From: Synechococcus sp. PCC 7502 | GTDB taxonomy: Bacteria > Cyanobacteriota > Cyanobacteriia > Pseudanabaenales > Pseudanabaenaceae | DNA: 64,000 nucleotides | NCBI RefSeq assembly: GCF_000317085.1 | Contig: NC_019702.1 | Location: forward strand, 2,262,394-2,326,393 | Direction: 5' to 3' | In this document: piece by piece, positions 11,433 to 24,565 of the stretch | How the letters are laid out: each line of letters starts with the position of its first letter | Numbering within the stretch: the stretch's first letter is position 1 | Made by a program: the position numbers and the translations under genes | The notes under the pieces: model-generated | Told to the model about the DNA's origin: nothing | Databases searched by the model: none | What the model saw: the letters and a program-made list of their open reading frames with translations, nothing else

Positions 11433-11541
11433 GAATGATCTTTTAGAAGTTACTTGGAACTCCCAAAAGCCTTACCAGTTATGGCTCCCCAGCCAATGGA
11501 GCTAAGCGGATTCGAACCGCTGACCCCCTCAATGCCATTGA
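11433..11541. repeat. Left copy (attL) of a 109-bp direct repeat bounding the integrated element
   Basis: By my reading the sequence is identical base for base to 24429-24537. It contains the 3' half of tRNA-Ala (anticodon arm to discriminator base) plus 64 bp downstream of the tRNA. After 11541 the two copies diverge abruptly, inside the anticodon stem. The repeat is the expected attachment-site duplication left by tyrosine-integrase insertion into a tRNA gene. Confidence 0.9.
11497..11541 (-). pseudogene. tRNA-Ala 3'-half fragment
   Basis: This is 45 nt matching the T arm, variable loop and 3' side of the anticodon arm of tRNA-Ala(GGC), ending at the discriminator A. The 5' half is missing, so it cannot fold as a tRNA. 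It is the displaced 3' end created by integration. Confidence 0.85.
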
Positions 11542-11666: not shown

Positions 11667-11870
11667 TTAATTCTCGACATTCATTAACTCTTTCTTTGCC
11701 GCTTCAGTGATTACCCGCCGTAGCCATGCCGATCTATTAGGTAGTGATCGCACTAAAGCATCAATTTCTAATGGCAATCTAGCCCCTAAAGTTAAAGGGG
11801 ATAGTTTATCGGTTGTGTCGTCTTGCCTAGTGACGTATTGAAGATTATTTTTAGGATGTGGATTGCCCAT
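11667..11870 (-). CDS. Small ribbon-helix-helix-like protein
   Basis: This protein has 67 residues from the ATG at 11870. The core LGARLPLEIDALVRSLPNRSAWLRRVITEAAKKEL shows a short basic strand (LGARLPLE) followed by two helices. That is the pattern of a ribbon-helix-helix DNA-binding domain of the kind found on cyanobacterial plasmids. It is probably a small repressor or plasmid-maintenance regulator. An open extension to 12035 lies upstream but would run into the DUF2335 gene, so the short form is preferred. Confidence 0.6.
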   Translation of the reverse strand: MGNPHPKNNLQYVTRQDDTTDKLSPLTLGARLPLEIDALVRSLPNRSAWLRRVITEAAKKELMNVEN

Positions 11871-11976
11871 AAGCGTTATTTGTTTGTGAACAAAGATAAT
11901 ATATCTTACAAGATTAAGTACAGTCAAATAAAAGCCCCGTATTTGTACAGGGCTAGTAAGTTTAATTAGTAAAGTG

Positions 11977-12414
11977 TTAATTGTCTGTCTTTTTCTCGGC
12001 TTCTCTACCTTTGACAAAGATTGTAACACCGCCAATAAAAGCGGTGACTATACTCCCTATCGCCACGCCCTCACTACCAATCTTCAAAGAATATCCCGCA
12101 AAGCTAATCACAGCCAAGAAAAGGATGAATCCTAAAGTTTGTCCTCGCATTTCAAATGTACGAATTGTCTTTGTATCGCCTATTTGCGCTTGAGTCTCCA
12201 TGATTTCTATGGTGTGACGATGAGCTTGTTCTTTTTCGGTCAAAGTAACTATACGGTCAACCATCCCAGGAACAATATTTTCGTATTCTACTAAAATCGA
12301 AGGGTGAGGGAATTGTCCTGTATAAAATTCTAAAGTTTGTTCTTCATACTCTTGACTGTGAACTACATTAGATTCTTTTGGGTCAAGAGGTTGAATGTTC
12401 GTATCTTCAGACAT
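11977..12414 (-). CDS. DUF2335-type membrane protein
   Basis: This protein has 145 residues. The first half is soluble and acidic, with the recognisable segment LEFYTGQFPHPSILVEYENIVPGMVDRIV and then TLTEKEQAHRHTIE. The C-terminal half has two transmembrane helices (TLGFILFLAVISFAGYSL and GVAIGSIVTAFIGGVTIFV) and a basic tail. This architecture is that of DUF2335, a small membrane family common on phages and mobile elements and of unknown function. It follows a small unknown gene by 6 bp on the same strand. Confidence 0.75.
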   Translation of the reverse strand: MSEDTNIQPLDPKESNVVHSQEYEEQTLEFYTGQFPHPSILVEYENIVPGMVDRIVTLTEKEQAHRHTIEIMETQAQIGDTKTIRTFEMRGQTLGFILFLAVISFAGYSLKIGSEGVAIGSIVTAFIGGVTIFVKGREAEKKTDN

Positions 12415-12420
12415 GCTTTT

Positions 12421-12756
12421 TTATGGATCGATAGATTTTGCAATAGCTACACGAAAACATGAACTCACTTTTGACACGTCAGACTTTAACGCTTCAATAT
12501 CCTTGAAGTTTACTGTCTTGACAAATGATTTTCTAAGTGGATGCCCTAGGAAAATTTTACTTTTTCTTGGAGTTGGCATGATATTCAATACCGAACCCAT
12601 TCCAAGCACAAACGCGGCAGTTCTAGAAGGGAGAGGGCGAATTCTGGAAGGCAGAGCGTGAATTCCGGGGGGCAAGGCGGGAATTCCAGAAGGAACGGGT
12701 ACCTTTTGGATTGCTAGTACTTTTTGTAAAACAGAATTTGGTGTGTTGATTTCCAT
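12421..12756 (-). CDS. Hypothetical protein with four 7-residue Pro-rich repeats
   Basis: This protein has 111 residues from the ATG at 12756. The family is not recognised. The N-terminal third contains a tandem heptad, PSGIPAL, PPGIHAL, PSRIRPL, PSRTAAF, encoded by a 21-bp repeat. The remainder is basic. The stop lies 6 bp before the start of the DUF2335 gene, which argues for a shared transcript. A competing plus-strand frame covers part of it but has no supporting context. Coding status is moderate. Confidence 0.4.
   Translation of the reverse strand: MEINTPNSVLQKVLAIQKVPVPSGIPALPPGIHALPSRIRPLPSRTAAFVLGMGSVLNIMPTPRKSKIFLGHPLRKSFVKTVNFKDIEALKSDVSKVSSCFRVAIAKSIDP
12610..12693. repeat. Four tandem 21-bp repeats
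   Basis: Four adjacent 21-bp units, each with a GAATTC-like core (one is GTTCTA), run from 12610 to 12693. Each encodes one Pro-x-x-Ile-x-x-Leu heptad on the minus strand. The units have diverged at several bases but keep length and frame, which suggests selection on the peptide. Confidence 0.7.
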
Positions 12757-12848
12757 AAATTTAACCTGGTCCACACATGTACAAATATGTTTGGAAGTCG
12801 ATCTATATTATCTCATTTCGCAAACAAGCGATCGCTAAGGTTAATTCA

Positions 12849-12896
12849 GCGATCGCTAGTCCCCACTTATTAAAGTTAGTGGGGACTAGCGATCGC
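12849..12896. repeat. Perfect 19-bp inverted repeat built on two HIP1 octamers
   Basis: Left arm 12849-12867 (GCGATCGCTAGTCCCCACT), a 10-base loop, and the exact complement at 12878-12896. The outer bases of each arm are HIP1 octamers. No T run follows on either strand, so it does not look like an intrinsic terminator. It sits at the start of the 500-bp gene-free region that contains the iteron-like array. Confidence 0.8.
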
Positions 12897-12999
12897 AATC
12901 AAATCAACGATCGCATAATGCAATTCCTGAACTTGGTCGATCTAATCTTCGATTAAAAAGCGATCGCCACCAAGCTAAAATTCACGGGCGATAAAGAGG

Positions 13000-13240
13000 G
13001 ACAAATCTGTGGACATTCCCGTAGACACCTTGGGGACAATGTAAACCCTAAAAGCATTAATAGATAGGTATTTAAGCCTTTAGAATGTCCGATCAATGTC
13101 CGTAAACCTGTCCGTTAAAATGTCTGTTATTTTAGTCGGACAACCTGATAAAACCTGACATTTTACAGGCACCCAAAACCTAGCAAAACTTAGTATTTTG
13201 CCGACATTTCTACCGACACAAAACCGACACCTTACCGACA
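13000..13240. other. Iteron-like array, candidate replication origin
   Basis: Three groups of four short repeats share a GACA core and are phased at 11-12 bp. Group 1 has GACA at 13000, 13012, 13024 and 13035. Group 2 is in the opposite orientation, with TGTCCG at 13086, 13097 and 13109 and TGTCTG at 13121. Group 3 has CCGACA at 13201, 13213, 13224 and 13235. Phasing of one helical turn and opposed groups are typical of initiator-binding iterons. No gene overlaps the region, which lies in the longest gene-free stretch (12775-13288) of an element that encodes a replication protein and a partition pair. Confidence 0.6.
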
Positions 13241-13288
13241 TCTAAAACTATAAAACCCTCTAACAATGAGGGTTAGATGATATAGACT

Positions 13289-14389: not shown

Positions 14390-14462
14390 TGGATTAATTC
14401 CTTAATTGGGATTGTTTTGATAAGGTGATCGCTGTTTTCTTGGTCGGAAGTGCGATCGCCTT

Positions 14463-14505
14463 AACTTTTTATATAGTACTTTATTTATCAAATACTTGTC
14501 AAGTA
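14463..14505 (-). promoter_or_regulatory. Promoter/operator block, copy 1
   Basis: This 43-bp block matches 14943-14985 at 40 positions. It contains the perfect palindrome TACTTGTCAAGTA (14493-14505). Read on the minus strand, the palindrome holds TTGACA, a consensus -35 box. An AT-rich stretch with a weak -10 candidate follows 18 bp on. It precedes the leftward gene starting at 14389. Confidence 0.55.
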
Positions 14506-14535
14506 GTTTATAAAGTATTTTATTTGCAAATTACT

Positions 14536-14889
14536 TTAAGCAATTGCAAGCTTTTTGGGTCTGCCCCGTTTCTTATGGACTGTGATTGTATTTTGAGTCA
14601 TTGGTACTATGACAACCCCAGAACTAGGCAAAACAGGTGGGGTTATTAGGGTTCTAGGCTGCGTACCTGAAAGTAACCCAATCACATTAAATGCACTTAG
14701 AGCAAGGTTTTTGGGGTGCGTACTTGATTGATCGTCACACCAATCATTAAGTAACTTTATCCTGATAGTGATCGCCTTAATAGTGGCTGAAAGTATTTGG
14801 ATTACGCTAGAGATTAGAACTATTACAAGCAGTGCAAAACCAGTAAGAATAAGCTTTATAGCGGTTAAAGTTAATTTAGTATTGTTCAT
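14536..14889 (-). CDS. Membrane protein with AT-hook-like tail
   Basis: This protein has 117 residues. An N-terminal hydrophobic region (IKLILTGFALLVIVLISSVIQIL) is a transmembrane helix, and a short polar domain follows. The C-terminus is HKKRGRPKKLAIA, containing the GRP core of an AT-hook. A membrane protein with a DNA-binding tail could tether the element or its origin to the membrane, but that is speculation. It is preceded by the second operator block. Confidence 0.5.
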   Translation of the reverse strand: MNNTKLTLTAIKLILTGFALLVIVLISSVIQILSATIKAITIRIKLLNDWCDDQSSTHPKNLALSAFNVIGLLSGTQPRTLITPPVLPSSGVVIVPMTQNTITVHKKRGRPKKLAIA

Positions 14890-14942
14890 TGTTAGTTCCT
14901 GTGTAGAGGTTAGGAGTGGCTATCAGAGTGTAGAGATTGCTG

Positions 14943-14985
14943 AACTTTTTATATGGTACTTTATTTATAAACTACTTGTCAAGTA
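14943..14985 (-). promoter_or_regulatory. Promoter/operator block, copy 2
   Basis: This block repeats the one at 14463 and contains the same perfect 13-bp palindrome (14973-14985) with an embedded TTGACA on the minus strand. It lies between the leftward membrane-protein gene and the rightward ribbon-helix-helix gene, and so may control both. A further TACTTGG and AAGTACC pair lies at 15038-15063 just upstream of the rightward gene. Confidence 0.55.
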
Positions 14986-15078
14986 CTAAATAAGTACAAT
15001 ACTTTAGATATACTTTATATTGTGCTTTTATTTAAGGTACTTGGTATATACTTTATAAGTACCTTAGAAATAATTGAT

Positions 15079-15699
15079 ATGGCAAAACCTCTAAATATCA
15101 AGCCAGTGCAGATTTACCCAAGCCCTGAGCTTTATGATGCCATTAAAGAAACTGTCGATAATGGTACTTATAGAAGCATGAATGCTGCTGTGATTGCATT
15201 GGTGGAAAATGCTCTATTGGGGAGTAACAAAGCTGAAAATAATCAATCCTCTGTAGATATTGGTACTGTAAAGCAGTTAATTAAAAACGAAATCGCAGGG
15301 CTGAAACAGCAATTATTAGATGAGTTATCAATTCTGATCGCTAATTTTGGCAGTGGTCAGGCTGATACTGCGATCGCCAACAGTGAGACTAAACATAACC
15401 AAGTTGATTTAACGGATATTCCTGCTACTCAGGCGATCGCAGTTAGTCCAGAAATTACCCCAGATAATCCAAAACCCTCTCAAGATGGTTCAGAGCATCC
15501 TTACCCTATTGGGGCAGAAATAAGGCTTAAGGACTTGGCAGAATATCTAGGCTTTGATCGGGTTAACTACTCTACAAAGGCTAAAAAACAGGGGATAAGC
15601 CAAGAGGATTACATTAACAATATTGCTAGGGATAGAGGTGAAGTTTGGAAACGTGTAGAGCATTCTCAAAATAATGTAACGGTTATTAGAGTTAAATAA
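15079..15699 (+). CDS. Ribbon-helix-helix-type DNA-binding protein
   Basis: This protein has 206 residues from the ATG at 15079. Residues 1-45 (IKPVQIYPSPELYDAIKETVDNGTYRSMNAAVIALVENALL) have the strand-helix-helix pattern of plasmid CopG/ParD-like repressors. A coiled segment follows (VKQLIKNEIAGLKQQLLDEL), then a Pro-rich linker, then a C-terminal domain (IRLKDLAEYLGFDRVNYSTKAKKQGI) that resembles a second helix-turn-helix. It is divergent from the membrane-protein gene across a palindromic operator, which fits an autoregulator. Confidence 0.6.
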   Translation: MAKPLNIKPVQIYPSPELYDAIKETVDNGTYRSMNAAVIALVENALLGSNKAENNQSSVDIGTVKQLIKNEIAGLKQQLLDELSILIANFGSGQADTAIANSETKHNQVDLTDIPATQAIAVSPEITPDNPKPSQDGSEHPYPIGAEIRLKDLAEYLGFDRVNYSTKAKKQGISQEDYINNIARDRGEVWKRVEHSQNNVTVIRVK

Positions 15700-16497: not shown

Positions 16498-17019
16498 TTA
16501 ATTGATAACAAAATACTTTTCAAAAGTAGGAATTTTTGCCTCTCCTATTCCACTGCTAAGTTTAGTAAAAACTTTCAGATCATTTGATTTAGACCAATTG
16601 CTTCGCTTTTCCACAATTAACTTTGCTGCTTTTTTTGCATCTATTCTTTTGAAATCATGTAGTTTAATAATGTACTGGATCATTTCAAAGATTAAATCTT
16701 CTGAAGCGGTTAAAAGATCAATTTCAAATTTTTGTTTTGATTCAATATCGATCTGTTTTTTTCGTTCTTCATCAGCCAAAATACACCATACATAATCTAA
16801 CTTAGCCTCGATTGCCCCAGCTAAAATATCCCCATTTAGTAAGACCTTATAGCTATCATCGGTTTCTTGTTCAACAATTACAGGTAGAATATTACGCCCT
16901 GATTGGCTAAGTTTATCTGCGATCGCACTAATTATTACCTTGTCAGTATTAGTCCCTTCATATCTAATTTCATGACGTGGGATGCGAAGATATTTACCGA
17001 GGTCGCTAAAGTTTTCCAT
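16498..17019 (-). CDS. ParB/Srx-fold partition protein
   Basis: This protein has 173 residues. Near the N-terminus, RIPRHEIRYEGTNTDKVIISAIADKLSQSGRNILPVIVEQ and then YKVLLNGDILAGAIEAKLDYVWCIL reproduce the ParB N-terminal (sulfiredoxin-like) pattern, with G-D in place of the usual G-x-RR. The remaining residues are helical. It starts 2 bp after the ParA gene ends, so the two form a partition operon. It is shorter than chromosomal ParB and lacks a clear classical helix-turn-helix. Confidence 0.65.
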   Translation of the reverse strand: MENFSDLGKYLRIPRHEIRYEGTNTDKVIISAIADKLSQSGRNILPVIVEQETDDSYKVLLNGDILAGAIEAKLDYVWCILADEERKKQIDIESKQKFEIDLLTASEDLIFEMIQYIIKLHDFKRIDAKKAAKLIVEKRSNWSKSNDLKVFTKLSSGIGEAKIPTFEKYFVIN

Positions 17020-17021
17020 AG

Positions 17022-18185
17022 TTATTCGTAGATAAAGTTAGGGTTAATAAAAATTTCTTTAGTAAGTTCTTCGTAATCTCTGGATATTTTTGAGGTACTA
17101 ATTGAGATAACGGGGTGCCGTTTGAAAGTAGCTTGTCTAACAGCAGCAAATACTCCAAGCTTAGTTTTATAGACTTTCAAAGATGCTTTAGCCAGAAATT
17201 CTTCAACCGCTTTCTCTAACTTAGACCCCATATCAGTATGATTGCTGAATACAACCCCTAAAACCCTTGGATTTATATCAGCAATAGGTGTTTTGTTAAT
17301 ATCAGTTGTTCTAAGCGATCGTATTTTCTGAACTAATCCTTGGTTAATATCTTTGGCATGATGTAATGCCCTTTGATCGAAGTCAGCAGGAATCAACATA
17401 GCATCACAGGCAAATAATGAAGATACCGTAGCTATATCTGGGTCTGGGGAAGTATCAATAAAAATGTAGTCGTATTTTGGAGCGATCGCAGCTAGTAGCC
17501 TTTTTAGTAGGGTCTGCTTGTTTTTTATTTCATATTCATCACTACGAAATTTTTCAATGGTGTCTCGGTCAGTTGGTAAAACACTAATACTGTACTTGTC
17601 TTGACTACTAGGAAGGGGGAAATTACGTTCGACTATCAATTTCTCTAATAAATCTATAGCTTCTTGAGTTTTGCCTAAACCAATCTGGTCGAAACATTCA
17701 AGTATTTGGTATTTATAATCGCTTGGCTCAAGCCCTAACCCACGGGTTAAATCGCTTTGTCCATCAAAATCAACTACCAAAACCCGTTTACCCATTTTGG
17801 CTAAAACAGCAGAAATATTAATGACATTAGTTGTTTTGCCTACGCCGCCTTTACGATTCCAAAGGCTGATAATCAAGGCTCTTTGTGGATGTTCAAGATA
17901 ATATTGAAGCTGTGCAATCAGTTTAGGCAAGTTATCCTTGTTAACTCTATAAATATCCGTAAGTGGTAATACTAACCCGTCTACACGTCTAAACAATTGC
18001 CAAAATTCTCCACTAAATACCCACCCAAGGGGAGCAGAAGTAGGAAGAGTTAGATATTGTTGTATTCCTGCGCTAGTAATACCAAAAACAGCATCTCTGT
18101 ATAACGGGCAGTTAACAAAATTTTCAGTAGGCTGCTTCTTTTTAGTTTCGACATACAGCAAAGGCTTAGAGTTTTTACCATACAA
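17022..18185 (-). CDS. parA: ParA-family partition ATPase
   Basis: This protein has 387 residues if translation starts at the TTG at 18185. It is an ATPase that positions plasmid copies together with ParB and a centromere site. The deviant Walker A motif RKGGVGKTTN lies at 111-120, a VVDFDGQSDLTRGLG switch I region near 145, and DYIFIDTSPDPD (Walker B) near 240. The first 100 residues are not part of the ATPase. They begin with SKPLLYVETKKK, which continues upstream in the same frame as a nuclease-like domain cut by a TAA codon (18198-18200). The preserved partition half suggests that it still functions. Confidence 0.85.
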   Translation of the reverse strand: MYGKNSKPLLYVETKKKQPTENFVNCPLYRDAVFGITSAGIQQYLTLPTSAPLGWVFSGEFWQLFRRVDGLVLPLTDIYRVNKDNLPKLIAQLQYYLEHPQRALIISLWNRKGGVGKTTNVINISAVLAKMGKRVLVVDFDGQSDLTRGLGLEPSDYKYQILECFDQIGLGKTQEAIDLLEKLIVERNFPLPSSQDKYSISVLPTDRDTIEKFRSDEYEIKNKQTLLKRLLAAIAPKYDYIFIDTSPDPDIATVSSLFACDAMLIPADFDQRALHHAKDINQGLVQKIRSLRTTDINKTPIADINPRVLGVVFSNHTDMGSKLEKAVEEFLAKASLKVYKTKLGVFAAVRQATFKRHPVISISTSKISRDYEELTKEIFINPNFIYE

Positions 18186-18191
18186 GACAAA

Positions 18192-18210
18192 ATCAGGTTA
18201 TAAACCTGAT
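18192..18210. repeat. Perfect 8+3+8 palindrome at the parA start
   Basis: ATCAGGTTATAAACCTGAT lies 7 bp upstream of the TTG start of parA and contains the in-frame TAA of the broken N-terminal extension. It could be an operator or centromere half site for the partition proteins. I saw only this single copy. Confidence 0.5.
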
Positions 18211-18344
18211 CCGACATTCGGTTGAGTGAGATATCTATACCCCAAAAATTCTAATAGATGGTTAGTGAACAAAGAGTTTAAGTTAGGTTCGCTTATTTTT
18301 GTACCTAAATCCTTCCATTTTTCGACTAATTGTGATACTTCCAT
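18198..18344 (-). pseudogene. N-terminal HsdR-like (PD-(D/E)xK) extension of ParA, interrupted by TAA
   Basis: The ATG at 18344 opens 48 codons (MEVSQLVEKWKDLGTKISEP ... FTNHLLEFLGYRYLTQPNVGSGL), then TAA, then PDFVLYGKNSKPLLYVETKKK, in one frame with ParA. Ignoring the stop, the joined sequence has the order F-x-x-x-LLEFLGY, G-PD-FVLYG and LLYVETKK. That is the D...ExK layout of the type I restriction R-subunit N-terminal nuclease fold. A single base change (AAA to TAA) would explain the stop. A loss of six bases is equally possible. Confidence 0.55.
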
Positions 18345-18917: not shown

Positions 18918-19226
18918 TTATAGTTGCTTAAAGTTAGGATTCCAAGTGGTTTTACAGGGTTCACAGAAGGAAAACCCGCCTATGCCTTGCTGTCTAGGTA
19001 CATAATCATTAGCGTTTTGATGGCATAACGGGCATTTTCCAAACCAATCGGATAGGCGATCGCATTTTGGTAACTTGCAGTCATCGAGTGGGTAAGGTTC
19101 ACCCTTTGAAAATAGGTAAACTTTTCCCTCTGGATTTTTAGCCCTACGTTCAACTCGATTAAATCCGTTGGGGAAAATTACACCCGCCCCAACTTCAGGA
19201 ATTTTAGAAATCGGTAAAGTCATCAT
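18918..19226 (-). CDS. Zinc-ribbon hypothetical protein
   Basis: This protein has about 102 residues. The ATG at 19226 is chosen because a GGA lies ten bases upstream; an ATG at 19241 is also open. The N-terminal half (VIFPNGFNRVERRAKNPEGKVYLFSKGEPYPLDDC) is unknown. The C-terminal half has CPLCHQNAND and SFCEPCKTTW, two C-x2-C knuckles of a zinc ribbon. The start overlaps the end of the replication gene by about 20 bp, suggesting coupling. Confidence 0.6.
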   Translation of the reverse strand: MMTLPISKIPEVGAGVIFPNGFNRVERRAKNPEGKVYLFSKGEPYPLDDCKLPKCDRLSDWFGKCPLCHQNANDYVPRQQGIGGFSFCEPCKTTWNPNFKQL

Positions 19227-21561
19227 GATTTTTAATTCCATTCTTAGAGTAGGCAGTCAATTCAGTCAACGATGTCTGTAAGTCTTTCTCTATCTCGATT
19301 TGACTATTGACTGGCACACAGTCAACTTGGCAGTCACCACAGTCAACTGGTTCAGTATCAAAACTAAAATCATTGACTGTCTTGACTGGGTTATTGACTG
19401 CTACACAGTCAACGGTTAACGCTATATCTAGCAAGGGTTCTATCTGTTGGTGACTGGATTGACTGCCTCTAGTAACAATAACTATGTAGTTAGATTGGGT
19501 TGGATCACCTTTGGCGATCGCATATCCAAGATTTACAACCTTGCTCATAAAGTCTCGAATTTCCTGTAACTTTGGTTTTTTAGTAGACCACCATGCCCTA
19601 ACCTGAACAGCCTTAATTTCTCCACAGTTCTGGAATCTGTTAACAAATTTGAGTATTCTTGACATTTCTGGGTTATCCCCAATACCAAACTCTGCATAAA
19701 GCTCTTTACTTTGGGCAATTAACCACCTAGTAAAGCTAATAGCCTTTTCCAATGTCTCTACTGATACCCCTACTAAGAGCCCATCCCGATGGCTAATACA
19801 ATGGGCTATTAGAGCTATCCGCCCCGCCCTTTCTTTCATCTTGGGATAAATTGCCCTAAGTATGGGTGAAGCCTCGACTAGCTTGATAGACTCCATTTCA
19901 TCATGCCAATCTGCCCAAAGCTGCTGTGCTTGTTTGCTAAGGGTGTAAGTAGCTGCTGGCAAATTGCTTAAGTCACAGTAAAGCCCTTTTAGTAAGTCAC
20001 CCACTAGATACTTACCGCCGCTAGGAGCAGGGGTTTTAGTTAATGGCAACCGTATCCATGAAAATCTAGCCCATAAGCCGTCTTCAGAGCTTAAATCATC
20101 GGTCATTATGTTTTGTAGAATAGAAGGCTGTATGCCTCCAATGATGCTTATCCCTGTCCGCTTGGCAAAAACTCTGGTGTCGTCACTCTTGCGGTTACTT
20201 TTCCAAGCCCCACCGTCGTATGCACTTAAGAATTTGGGGCGATCATTACCTTTGCCACTACGGTATTGGTTGAAACCTTGAAAGAAAGTTGCAAGCTCAT
20301 CCATATAGAGGGTAAACCCTTGTAACGGCTGCTTAGATATGGTTTGAGAAATATACTCTAGGGTAAAATCACTCAAATAATAATCCCGTCCTATTGGTTT
20401 TCTACCTGTGGATTCCCCTGCTTTTTCCTGCGCTTGCCATATCTCTAGTTCAGCTTTGTATATCTCCTCTGCATTGTATTGAAGTTCGATTAGGGGTGAA
20501 AGTATTGCCCGTGACTTGGGTGATTTCATTGCCCCTGTCTCTGCTACGGTGCCAACCCAAAAGATAGGCGGACAATGGTAGTCGGTTCCAGAATCGATTA
20601 ACAATGTGGTACCAATTGGGATTAGGCTCCCTGCTGCTGCCAATAAATCGGCATAGTAAAGCTCTGGGGAAAGTCCCATTTTCTGAGCTAGTCCAGTTAT
20701 TGCTCTTTCAAATATTTCTGGTAATAGTCCTCTCTGGGGCTTTGGATAGCTGGTTAGTGTGGCTAGATATTCAGCGTCTAGGGTTGAATTGTCATCATTG
20801 CCTTGATCTGCGAACTGAGCTAAATCAAAGGGTGCTATCGCAGATTCAATATCTTCTTTAGTGCATCCGTCAACTATCCAATCATAAACATCACGCCCAT
20901 CTTTAGCAGGGATATAGTCCCATTTACTAGGCTCTGCAAGCATCATTTTGATACTGGCTGCTACTGGTTTGAATGCCTCATAGTGGGCTAGTGCTTTTTT
21001 AATGCCTGTCTCATCACGATCGGGACAGATTATCAGATTGACACTTTTGAATAATTCCAAAGTTTCCAGAGTTGGCTTAGTCCTTAGATTTGTGGCAACT
21101 AAACCAAACCTGTTTACTAATTCATCTGCACCTAGTTCACCTTCTATTAGATAGATAGGTTTCTGATTGGCGATCGCCTCTTTGACTTCAGCCCATCGGT
21201 AAGGCAATAGTTCAGATTCTTTAATACCCAGTGGTTTAGCCCAAGTAGTAACTTTCTTACCGTCTGGTTTGTACTCACGATTAAATCGGTATTGGTTACC
21301 TTGCCTATCGCTGTAAATATGCTTAAAGTTTATTCCTACTGGTCTAGGAGACTTTTCACTGGGAATTACATAGATACCACACCGATCGTCAGAATTAGCC
21401 CCTATGTACTTCCAACCGTCCTTAGTTAAGTCTCCATTGATGCTTGAATGGCATAGAACCATAGAGCCGTTTTCACTGATTCTGCAATCTTTATCTTTTG
21501 TGCGATCGCATATCGGACAGGGGTTATTAATACCTGAATTTCTGAATTTTGAATTATTCAT
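19204..21561 (-). CDS. Replication protein: zinc-finger/TOPRIM primase-like with DUF3987 helicase-like domain
   Basis: This protein has 785 residues from the ATG at 21561, chosen for the strong GGGAGG ribosome-binding site 9 bp upstream. Residues 10-50 form a zinc finger (CPICDRTKDKDCRI ... MVLCH). Residues 130-210 carry TOPRIM-like motifs (IYLIEGELGADEL and LIICPDRDETG). From about 280 onward runs a DUF3987-type ATPase region (IFWVGTVAETGAMKSPKSRAI as degenerate Walker A; LYMDELATFF as Walker B). This architecture is typical of primase-helicase proteins of plasmids, phages and integrative elements. The last 85 residues are low-complexity and encoded by the TTGACTG repeat cluster. The next gene overlaps its end. 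Confidence 0.8.
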   Translation of the reverse strand: MNNSKFRNSGINNPCPICDRTKDKDCRISENGSMVLCHSSINGDLTKDGWKYIGANSDDRCGIYVIPSEKSPRPVGINFKHIYSDRQGNQYRFNREYKPDGKKVTTWAKPLGIKESELLPYRWAEVKEAIANQKPIYLIEGELGADELVNRFGLVATNLRTKPTLETLELFKSVNLIICPDRDETGIKKALAHYEAFKPVAASIKMMLAEPSKWDYIPAKDGRDVYDWIVDGCTKEDIESAIAPFDLAQFADQGNDDNSTLDAEYLATLTSYPKPQRGLLPEIFERAITGLAQKMGLSPELYYADLLAAAGSLIPIGTTLLIDSGTDYHCPPIFWVGTVAETGAMKSPKSRAILSPLIELQYNAEEIYKAELEIWQAQEKAGESTGRKPIGRDYYLSDFTLEYISQTISKQPLQGFTLYMDELATFFQGFNQYRSGKGNDRPKFLSAYDGGAWKSNRKSDDTRVFAKRTGISIIGGIQPSILQNIMTDDLSSEDGLWARFSWIRLPLTKTPAPSGGKYLVGDLLKGLYCDLSNLPAATYTLSKQAQQLWADWHDEMESIKLVEASPILRAIYPKMKERAGRIALIAHCISHRDGLLVGVSVETLEKAISFTRWLIAQSKELYAEFGIGDNPEMSRILKFVNRFQNCGEIKAVQVRAWWSTKKPKLQEIRDFMSKVVNLGYAIAKGDPTQSNYIVIVTRGSQSSHQQIEPLLDIALTVDCVAVNNPVKTVNDFSFDTEPVDCGDCQVDCVPVNSQIEIEKDLQTSLTELTAYSKNGIKNHDDFTDF
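19254..19465. repeat. Cluster of TTGACTG heptamers in both orientations
   Basis: Perfect heptamers lie at 19254, 19263, 19319, 19340 and 19406 (CAGTCAA) and at 19307, 19373, 19382, 19394 and 19459 (TTGACTG). Close variants lie near 19331 and 19451. Two pairs form identical-arm palindromes with 5-base centres: TTGACTGGCACACAGTCAA (19307-19325) and TTGACTGCTACACAGTCAA (19394-19412). All lie inside the 3' end of the replication gene, where they encode VDC and VN/VNN-type peptides. Confidence 0.75.
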
Positions 21562-21893
21562 TAGTTCGATCCTCCCGTAACTGGGCGATCGCATCTACAG
21601 CAAAGTAATTTACCTTTGAATAAATAACCACGTTTACAGCCACAGTGCTTACAAGATGGATTAATACCGACTGAGCGTATTTGAGGTTTGAATGATTGAA
21701 CTGGGAATAAATCTAATTGATCGTGATCAGCAAGGAAAGCATCAATTAATAATGAGCTTGGTTTAGTCCAAGTGTCTGAGGTAAGGCGATCTATGCTTGG
21801 GTGAAATATCAAGTTTGAGGTAGTATTAGTTCTAACAGTTGTTAAATTTTGTCCTACCCCTTTCCTGTCCAGAGAGGGATTTTTTTTACTCAT
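21561..21893 (-). CDS. Zinc-ribbon hypothetical protein
   Basis: This protein has 110 residues. The N-terminal part is polar and not recognised. The C-terminal part, CKHCGCKRGYLFKGKLLCCRCDRP, has the C-x2-C ... C-x2-C layout of a zinc ribbon. Its stop codon overlaps the ATG of the replication gene (TAATG), and its start abuts the stop of the preceding gene, so these three genes form one translationally coupled unit. Confidence 0.6.
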   Translation of the reverse strand: MSKKNPSLDRKGVGQNLTTVRTNTTSNLIFHPSIDRLTSDTWTKPSSLLIDAFLADHDQLDLFPVQSFKPQIRSVGINPSCKHCGCKRGYLFKGKLLCCRCDRPVTGGSN

Positions 21894-23250: not shown

Positions 23251-24354
23251 TCAAAACTCCATAAATACAGATTGTTGATTAATCGAACTCGCATAATTTT
23301 GAAACATCACTTTTGGATTGTGACCAGATGCCTCTGCTACATCGATATAGTTCGCTCCATTAGCTAAGGCATGAGATATAGCTGAATGTCTTGTAGCGTA
23401 GGGTTTACGGTATTCAATTCCTATCTTGGAGATTATCGTTTTCTATGCCCTGCGATTGAAGTTATGGTCATCTAACGGGTTCCCTTGAGGTGATGAGAAC
23501 ACTAAATCATCTGGTTTATGGGGTTTTTCAGAATGCAGTTTAAGCATTGCCGAAATATTAGGACTAATAACCACTGTCCTAAATTTTCCCGTCTTGGTTG
23601 TATTCCGATGGGTTCCCCTGCTAATCGTTTCACAGAAAATAATGTGACTAAAATCATCAGCGACATTTCTCCATCTCAACCCCGCAGCTTCACCAAATCG
23701 ACACGCTACCCCAAATAAAAACTTAACTAATGGGTAATAGTGGGAATAGTAGCGATCGCCCTTAAAAGCATTCAGGATTAATTGAATTTCATTAGCTGTG
23801 AATGGTTTAATCCGTTTAGACTCACTGGGCTTTATACGTTTTAGATGATTCTCCCAAGGGTTAGATTCTGAGATGTGATACTTTCCTTTTGCCCAATTCC
23901 AAGCCCCTTGTAGTAGCCATAGGCGATCTTTTGCTGTTCGACTTGATGCCCTCTCTAAGAGCAAAGCCAAGAAATTACCCGCAGCAAATTCCGTAACCTT
24001 AAATGCAGGAATATTCAGAGACTTTTCTAATTGCCTAAACAGTGGGTTATACCTACCACTAATTGAGCGAGTGGTTAAACCCTTTTCTTTAATTAGGTGC
24101 TGTATATATTTCTGGAATAACTCTGGGGCAGTAATTTCAGTGGCAGTTTTACCCCTTGTGCGAGGTTTGTACTTTAGTAAGGTTGGGTCAAAATATCCTG
24201 CTTGAATATCTAGCTCAATCTGGGCTGCTTTCTGTTTTGCTACGGCTCTACCAGTTGGATCGTCATTAACACCACAAGACATTTGCAGACGTTTGCCTTG
24301 GTATATCCAACGTAGTCTTAACCTACCGTCATGATTTTCTATGGTAATTTTCAT
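23251..24354 (-). pseudogene. int: Tyrosine recombinase (integrase) interrupted by an amber codon
   Basis: The frame from the ATG at 24354 would give 367 residues. The N-terminal arm-binding domain (MKITIENHDGRLRLRW; QGKRLQMSCGV) is of the DUF3596 type. A core-binding domain follows, then the catalytic domain with the first Arg in GVACRFGEAAGLRW and the Lys hairpin TTKTGKFRTV. At codon 304 a TAG (23443-23445) follows NFNRRA, where relatives have Trp. The same frame then continues with PYATRHSAISHAL, ASGHNPKVMFQNYAS (catalytic His and Tyr region) and a TGA at 23251. Without suppression the protein lacks the catalytic tyrosine. Confidence 0.85.
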
Positions 24355-24376
24355 CGGGGTAAATATCGGGGTAGTT
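24354..24376. promoter_or_regulatory. Paired CGGGGTA repeats at the integrase start (right end)
   Basis: Two CGGGGTA copies lie immediately upstream of the integrase ATG, in the same spacing as at 11602-11624. Integrase binding here would also repress its own promoter. The inference comes from the match between element ends. Confidence 0.5.
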
Positions 24377-24428
24377 TTACAACCCAAATAACCCTTAAAA
24401 GCCCATATTTACATCTCTTGTTGAGAAT

Positions 24429-24537
24429 GAATGATCTTTTAGAAGTTACTTGGAACTCCCAAAAGCCTTACCAGTTATGGCTCCCCAGCCAATGGAGCTA
24501 AGCGGATTCGAACCGCTGACCCCCTCAATGCCATTGA
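24429..24537. repeat. Right copy (attR) of the 109-bp direct repeat
   Basis: It is identical to 11433-11541 and includes the 3' 45 nt of the intact tRNA-Ala gene. It lies between the integrase and the tRNA, the usual arrangement for tRNA-targeting elements. Confidence 0.9.
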
Positions 24538-24565
24538 GGTGCGCTACCAACTGCGCTATAACCCC
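24493..24565 (-). tRNA. tRNA-Ala(GGC)
   Basis: This is 73 nt with a full cloverleaf. The acceptor stem is GGGGTTA with TAGCTCC and discriminator A. The anticodon loop ATGGCAT gives anticodon GGC, and the T arm is AGCGG TTCGAAT CCGCT. The third acceptor pair is G-U, the alanine identity determinant. CCA is not encoded. This copy is intact and serves as the integration site. Confidence 0.95.

Follow-up and report, generated by a model that had tools for sequence, protein, structure and literature searches.

A phased GACA repeat array on a decaying integrative element of Synechococcus sp. PCC 7502 as a possible plasmid-type maintenance site

The analyzed window (the whole stretch of 64,000 nucleotides from Synechococcus sp. 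PCC 7502) harbours an integrative element of about 13 kb, which is embedded in chromosomal DNA and characterized by exact 109-bp direct repeats at a tRNA-Ala gene together with a (shortened) tyrosine integrase gene (Table 1). It encodes (i) a Rep protein of the DUF3987 type, agreeing with the initial annotation of an element with its own replication gene, (ii) a ParA ATPase and an adjoining small ParB-like protein, and (iii) two RHH-type proteins, one of them preceded by TACTTGTCAAGTA / ACTTTATT-type repeats that probably represent its operator. The stop codon within the integrase gene occupies the position of a tryptophan in the 81 % identical integrase of a sister element, and the C-terminal remainder behind this stop is still readable (23254–23445). 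The ATPase of ParA homologues is fused to an N-terminal region that is conserved and shows PD...ExK-like residues (18185–18344 in the window); the in-frame TAA of the window copy lies in a GL-x-PD stretch that is conserved in this region of the relatives. With integrase and ParA both interrupted by stops, this copy of the element is decaying. The sister element is located in the same genome at about 1494500–1501400 (G000:C3, L093) and shares 82–86 % identity over the integrase and RHH regions. It lacks rep, parA, parB and the repeat array, all absent together, and has 141 bp where the window element has 1.65 kb including the array.

Table 1. Features of the integrative element and of its two repeat clusters (positions refer to the window)
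Feature	Position	Strand	Remarks
109-bp direct repeat, left end of element	11433..11541	+	
Second RHH-like small protein	11667..12035	-	Left of array; retained in sister element
Array group 1, four GACA	13000..13038	+	Cores at 13000, 13012, 13024, 13035; steps 12-12-11
Array group 2, inverted, four TGTC	13086..13124	-	Cores at 13086, 13097, 13109, 13121; steps 11-12-12
Two extra GACA cores	13139..13160	+	13139 CGGACA, 13157 CTGACA; 18 bp apart
AAAACCTAGC/AAAACTTAGT 10-11-mers	13168..13199	+	Precede group 3; like AAAACCTAGGT 11-mers adjoining the pPg_01 array
Array group 3, four CCGACA	13203..13240	+	Cores at 13203, 13215, 13226, 13237; steps 12-11-11
TACTTGTCAAGTA / ACTTTATT-type repeats	14460..15060	.	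Upstream of RHH gene (15022-15699); not GACA
RHH-type protein	15022..15699	+	Family common to all array-bearing loci; fold predicted from sequence
Small ParB-like protein	16498..17019	-	Neighbour of this ParA throughout the relatives seen; function predicted from position
ParA ATPase	17022..18185	-	Conserved N-terminal region upstream, same frame, behind TAA
Rep, DUF3987 protein (796 aa)	19204..21594	-	Sole Pfam match is DUF3987
Rep-internal cluster, 13 TTGACTG/CAGTCAA-type sites	19254..19466	.	3' coding end of rep; at most 1 mismatch
Tyrosine integrase (Arm-DNA-bind_2 + Phage_integrase)	23443..24387	-	Shortened by in-frame stop
109-bp direct repeat, right end of element	24429..24537	+	Overlaps tRNA-Ala (24493-24565)

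The array consists of 14 GACA cores, most commonly extended to C-S-GACA (CSGACA), which are arranged as three groups of four and two strays. Its initial description as three groups of four GACA repeats with 11–12 bp steps and an inverted middle group is borne out by the core positions; all twelve of these repeats are real, but the two further plus-strand cores had been overlooked. Group 1 is composed of the variants GGGACA, TGGACA, TAGACA and GGGACA, and group 2, read on the minus strand, of three CGGACA and one CAGACA. The supposed helical phasing holds with respect to the regular step, but the mean of 11.5 bp does not correspond to strict phase, since the deviation from 10.5 bp per turn adds up to about 3 bp over four sites. 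The region 12777–13288 looks non-coding, as previously stated, containing just three short overlapping ORFs (47–59 aa), one of which (53 aa) consists of the array repeats. To the left of the array, at 12849–12896, lies an inverted repeat of 19 bp that is perfect, encloses a loop of 10 bp and has HIP1 (GCGATCGC) at its ends. Within the 13-kb element, chains of four sites at 11–12 bp are confined to the array for any non-AT 4-mer (barring 4-mers overlapping array sites). Local shuffling of the element yielded 0.005 four-site chains per shuffle, none of 5000 dinucleotide shuffles of the 512-bp gap (12777–13288) contained even one such chain, and three-unit chains were found across the 3.58-Mb genome only in the array and in one unrelated place. 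The array thus displays multiple direct repeats in the non-coding DNA of a replicon, as expected for an iteron origin, and also the phased short repeats expected for an RHH/ParA centromere.

Scanning 390 cyanobacterial genomes with a pattern of three CSGACA units, followed by a second family scan and inspection of the matches, revealed four other real array loci in three Pseudanabaena genomes, bringing the array-bearing loci known to five: plasmid pPg_01 of P. galeata (L035), a 10.2-kb contig of Pseudanabaena sp. UBA1465 (L067) and two loci of one genome (L068 and L137 in G020). Hence, the phased repeats are kept in related elements, as the initial annotation had required of an origin. Most matches of the scan were judged by the matched sequence alone, and those inspected beyond these loci proved to be perfect tandem repeats, coding sequences (L069, L111, L118) or unrelated intergenic repeats; a 19-base pattern was uninformative in genome contigs, where about eight chance matches are expected. 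No such array was seen in CyRepA-like plasmids of Picosynechococcus. Searches with ParA in viral contigs and with the RHH protein in plasmids gave no match.

In the relatives, each cluster comprises 3–6 GACA sites, predominantly in the forms CSGACA and TGGACA and with steps of 11–12 bp, and the array is located between rep and the RHH gene, adjoining AT-rich 11-mers and flanked by convergent genes. In all four it is adjacent to rep or follows it closely on the downstream side, as opposed to a distance of 6 kb in the window. The interval from rep to the clusters contains AT-rich 11-mers (TATAGGGTTAA type), followed by TAGTTGA and GCATTTTGTCC. These AT-rich repeats are clear in the relatives and only partial in the window. 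An array downstream of rep with abutting AT-rich 11-mers, as present in four of the five loci, is an origin-like anatomy. The arrays of the window and pPg_01 align collinearly including their spacers (about 74 % identity over 50 bp between group 1 and a pPg_01 cluster), a score reached by one of 500 shuffles preserving all cores. A profile of the flanking module, built from six copies of module and repeats excluding the window array, recovered its own source loci with E-values of 2e-19 or better, as expected from its construction. At a threshold of 1e-4 it detected no further place in the 390 genomes save a partial copy in L067, indicating that the module is rare and specific to its loci. The full module (11-mers and TGTCC repeats) was not recognized in the window, where only the repeat part matched (12.4 bits). 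A reading of the array as relic of a mobile repeat was rejected, the rep-RHH position being too constant in the relatives. The pPg_01 region (NZ_CP112875.1, 60.1–75.2 kb) looks like a cointegrate, i.e., a 15-kb replicon between copies of a Tn3-type transposon. Cumulative GC skew did not mark the array as origin, which is uninformative because pPg_01 is apparently a Tn3 cointegrate and the skew maximum of the small plasmids lies at convergent genes.

A second repeat cluster is located inside the rep gene itself, with TTGACTG sites in both orientations and mostly at 9- or 12-bp steps. Since the sites occur in both orientations and several reading frames, they do not reflect an amino-acid repeat. 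A paralogous rep of the same genome (L095) contains ten GTGACTA sites in matching position (2286–2572 of rep). Altogether 11 cyanobacterial DUF3987 rep genes were sampled (the window rep, the L095 paralogue and nine from plasmids), ten of which carry an element-specific cluster, with shuffled maxima of 3–5: eight of the nine plasmid genes (L170–L174, L176–L178) have 7–16 copies of an element-specific 7-mer at 72–93 % of gene length, and the ninth (L175) has four copies only, no better than shuffles. Spacings are mostly 9–12 bp with groups of two to four sites, and the motif differs per element. The CyRepA-like genes examined showed no such internal cluster beyond HIP1 palindromes, and a shallow literature search retrieved no description of one. 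Repeats inside an initiator gene are familiar from the ori of phage lambda in gene O, from which the rep-internal cluster, as a candidate origin, differs by its element-specific 7-bp motifs, alternating clusters and location downstream of the DUF3987 domain. Judged on these grounds, the TTGACTG cluster is a better candidate for the Rep origin than the GACA array.

That the array represents the iterons of the element's own DUF3987 Rep, and hence its replication origin, is accordingly quite unlikely as an explanation. A Rep is indeed encoded on the element, and the layout of the array is similar to that of the in-gene clusters of DUF3987 genes (groups of 3–4, 9–12-bp steps, alternating orientation, 40–70 bp between groups), but the rep gene has a cluster of its own at the place where ten of the 11 genes have theirs, and CSGACA occurs with five different Reps: the DUF3987 protein of the window, a CyRepA-like DUF3854 protein (pPg_01), CyRepA1 (UBA1465), a P4-type primase (L068) and another, unclassified rep protein (L137). 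Moreover, the array is absent from L102, the Rep of which is 48 % identical to that of pPg_01, so that the motif is not specific to a cognate Rep; the reading of the array as Rep iterons was therefore rejected as the leading one. Binding of the array by an RHH protein (ParR, ParG or omega type) or the ParB-like protein, i.e., a function as partition centromere, seems unlikely, though less remote. RHH proteins of these types bind short phased repeats, the spacing of 11–12 bp is typical of RHH centromere proteins, an iterated profile places one RHH family in all five array loci (and also in array-less ones), and both ParA and the ParB-like protein are present in the window element and pPg_01. 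Against this, plasmid ABRG53g contains ParA and ParB-like proteins 92–94 % identical to the pPg_01 pair without the array, and relatives of the pair were found neither at the UBA1465 (L067) and L068 loci nor among the ORFs listed for L137; the array does not accompany parA/parB as a centromere would its cognate genes. Also the RHH genes are preceded by arrays of their own, which differ (TGTAAAACA in pPg_01 and L102, TATAGAT in L068 and L103, a TACTT-type in the window and sister elements, TGTAACAG in ABRG53g) while GACA remains constant, so that the motif does not follow RHH specificity as predicted from sequence, and the L102 RHH protein is 75 % identical, with the array missing. Thus, the suggested binding by the element's Rep or RHH proteins is not sustained, and an interpretation as RHH operator or parS is weakened by the separation of the array from these genes across replicons. 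In ABRG53g (L033, 401–700), the RHH gene is preceded by approximately 13 GTAACA repeats, which are probably the operator of the RHH protein or a centromere. A related element of genome G005 (L101, 10060–10400) has alternating groups of GTGACGAT repeats, which precede an RHH gene and lie close to a DUF3987 rep that is truncated.

A role as regulatory operator or other DNA-processing site (copy-number control, transfer, recombination) would fit the intergenic location of the array, which adjoins a terminator-like hairpin and lies upstream of a leftward gene (12421–12774), and its position between convergent genes in the relatives, a location likewise compatible with regulation or with the end of transcription. 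However, there is no relaxase or resolvase that every array locus possesses, and the convergent position leaves no annotated promoter to be regulated in the relatives, disfavouring such a role, which we regard as rather improbable. Finally, perfect tandem repeats of 12 bp with CCGACA occur commonly at other places in cyanobacteria, but an array arising by chance, or as a low-complexity tandem repeat of this common kind, is hardly conceivable: the cores are preserved between differing spacers, the orientation alternates, the arrangement recurs beside rep genes, and both the shuffles of element and gap and the core-preserving shuffles contradict it.

We tentatively favour, at somewhat less than even confidence, that the array is a plasmid-type maintenance site, i.e., a replication-control or accessory-origin site bound by a shared factor and possibly vestigial in the present element. 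Since the array tracks none of them across replicons, Rep, RHH and ParA/ParB-like protein of the element are all improbable as binders. The constant site amid changing neighbours suggests a shared factor that is not encoded by each locus, and a host-encoded or otherwise shared factor would be the simplest remaining reading, with the reservation that the loci sampled are few and that specificity can drift at 48 % identity. The idea of an origin is thus retained as far as the rep gene, the conservation and the origin-like anatomy in the relatives are concerned, but not in its assignment to the element's own Rep or RHH protein. Accordingly modified, the maintenance-site reading would imply that the element inherited the array as a cis-acting site from a Pseudanabaenaceae plasmid pool, most likely as a site for replication control or an accessory origin. 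Proteins of a single kind may occupy each cluster (three to six CSGACA at 11–12-bp steps) in a cooperative manner, and the adjacent AT-rich 11-mers of the Pseudanabaena relatives look like a putative strand-opening region, while the element's own Rep would more likely act at the TTGACTG cluster inside its gene. The stop codons in integrase and ParA suggest that the array may be vestigial in this copy. Counting against a maintenance site, it would be uncommon for an origin to lack an initiator of its own, the array lies 6 kb away from rep in this element, where the full module was not recognized, the cumulative GC skew gives no sign of an origin at the array, and the array-bearing loci number only five.

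Iteron-type origins of theta plasmids (F, P1, RK2, pSC101) resemble the array in that short direct repeats form clusters within non-coding DNA and adjoin AT-rich tandem repeats, and in the relatives also in the position beside rep. In contrast to the iterons of 17–22 bp at about 20 bp in these plasmids, the array has 6-bp cores at 11–12 bp; it is furthermore conserved across unrelated Reps, is separated from rep by 6 kb in the window, and would be bound by a merely putative protein partner. RHH-bound centromeres (parC of R1, parS of pSM19035) share the short cores, steps of about 11 bp, several clusters and nearby RHH genes, but differ from the array, which separates from parA/parB and RHH specificity and coexists with RHH genes having arrays of their own. 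Two of the array-bearing replicons have CyRepA1-type or CyRepA-like Reps and are in this respect comparable to the CyRepA1/CyRepA replicons dealt with in PMC9978351 and PMC10079941. Chromosomal copies of CyRepA1/CyRepA-type rep genes are known (PMC10899382). The passages searched in these three papers do not mention a repeat array, and none of the papers uses the term 'iteron'.

For cyanobacterial plasmids and integrated elements, the mapping of origins is poor, even in cases with a known Rep protein. One may speculate, albeit with considerable doubt, that cyanobacterial replicons combine two separable origin-type parts: a Rep-specific iteron cluster within the 3' coding end of DUF3987-type rep genes and an exchangeable module of CSGACA clusters and AT-rich 11-mers, recognized by a factor that the individual replicon does not encode and staying constant as the genes for Rep, RHH and Par proteins are replaced. 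Should the clusters inside rep be origins, one could read the origin of any DUF3987 replicon from its rep gene; should the CSGACA module be a maintenance site independent of Rep, it would point to a shared factor needed by the plasmids of one lineage.
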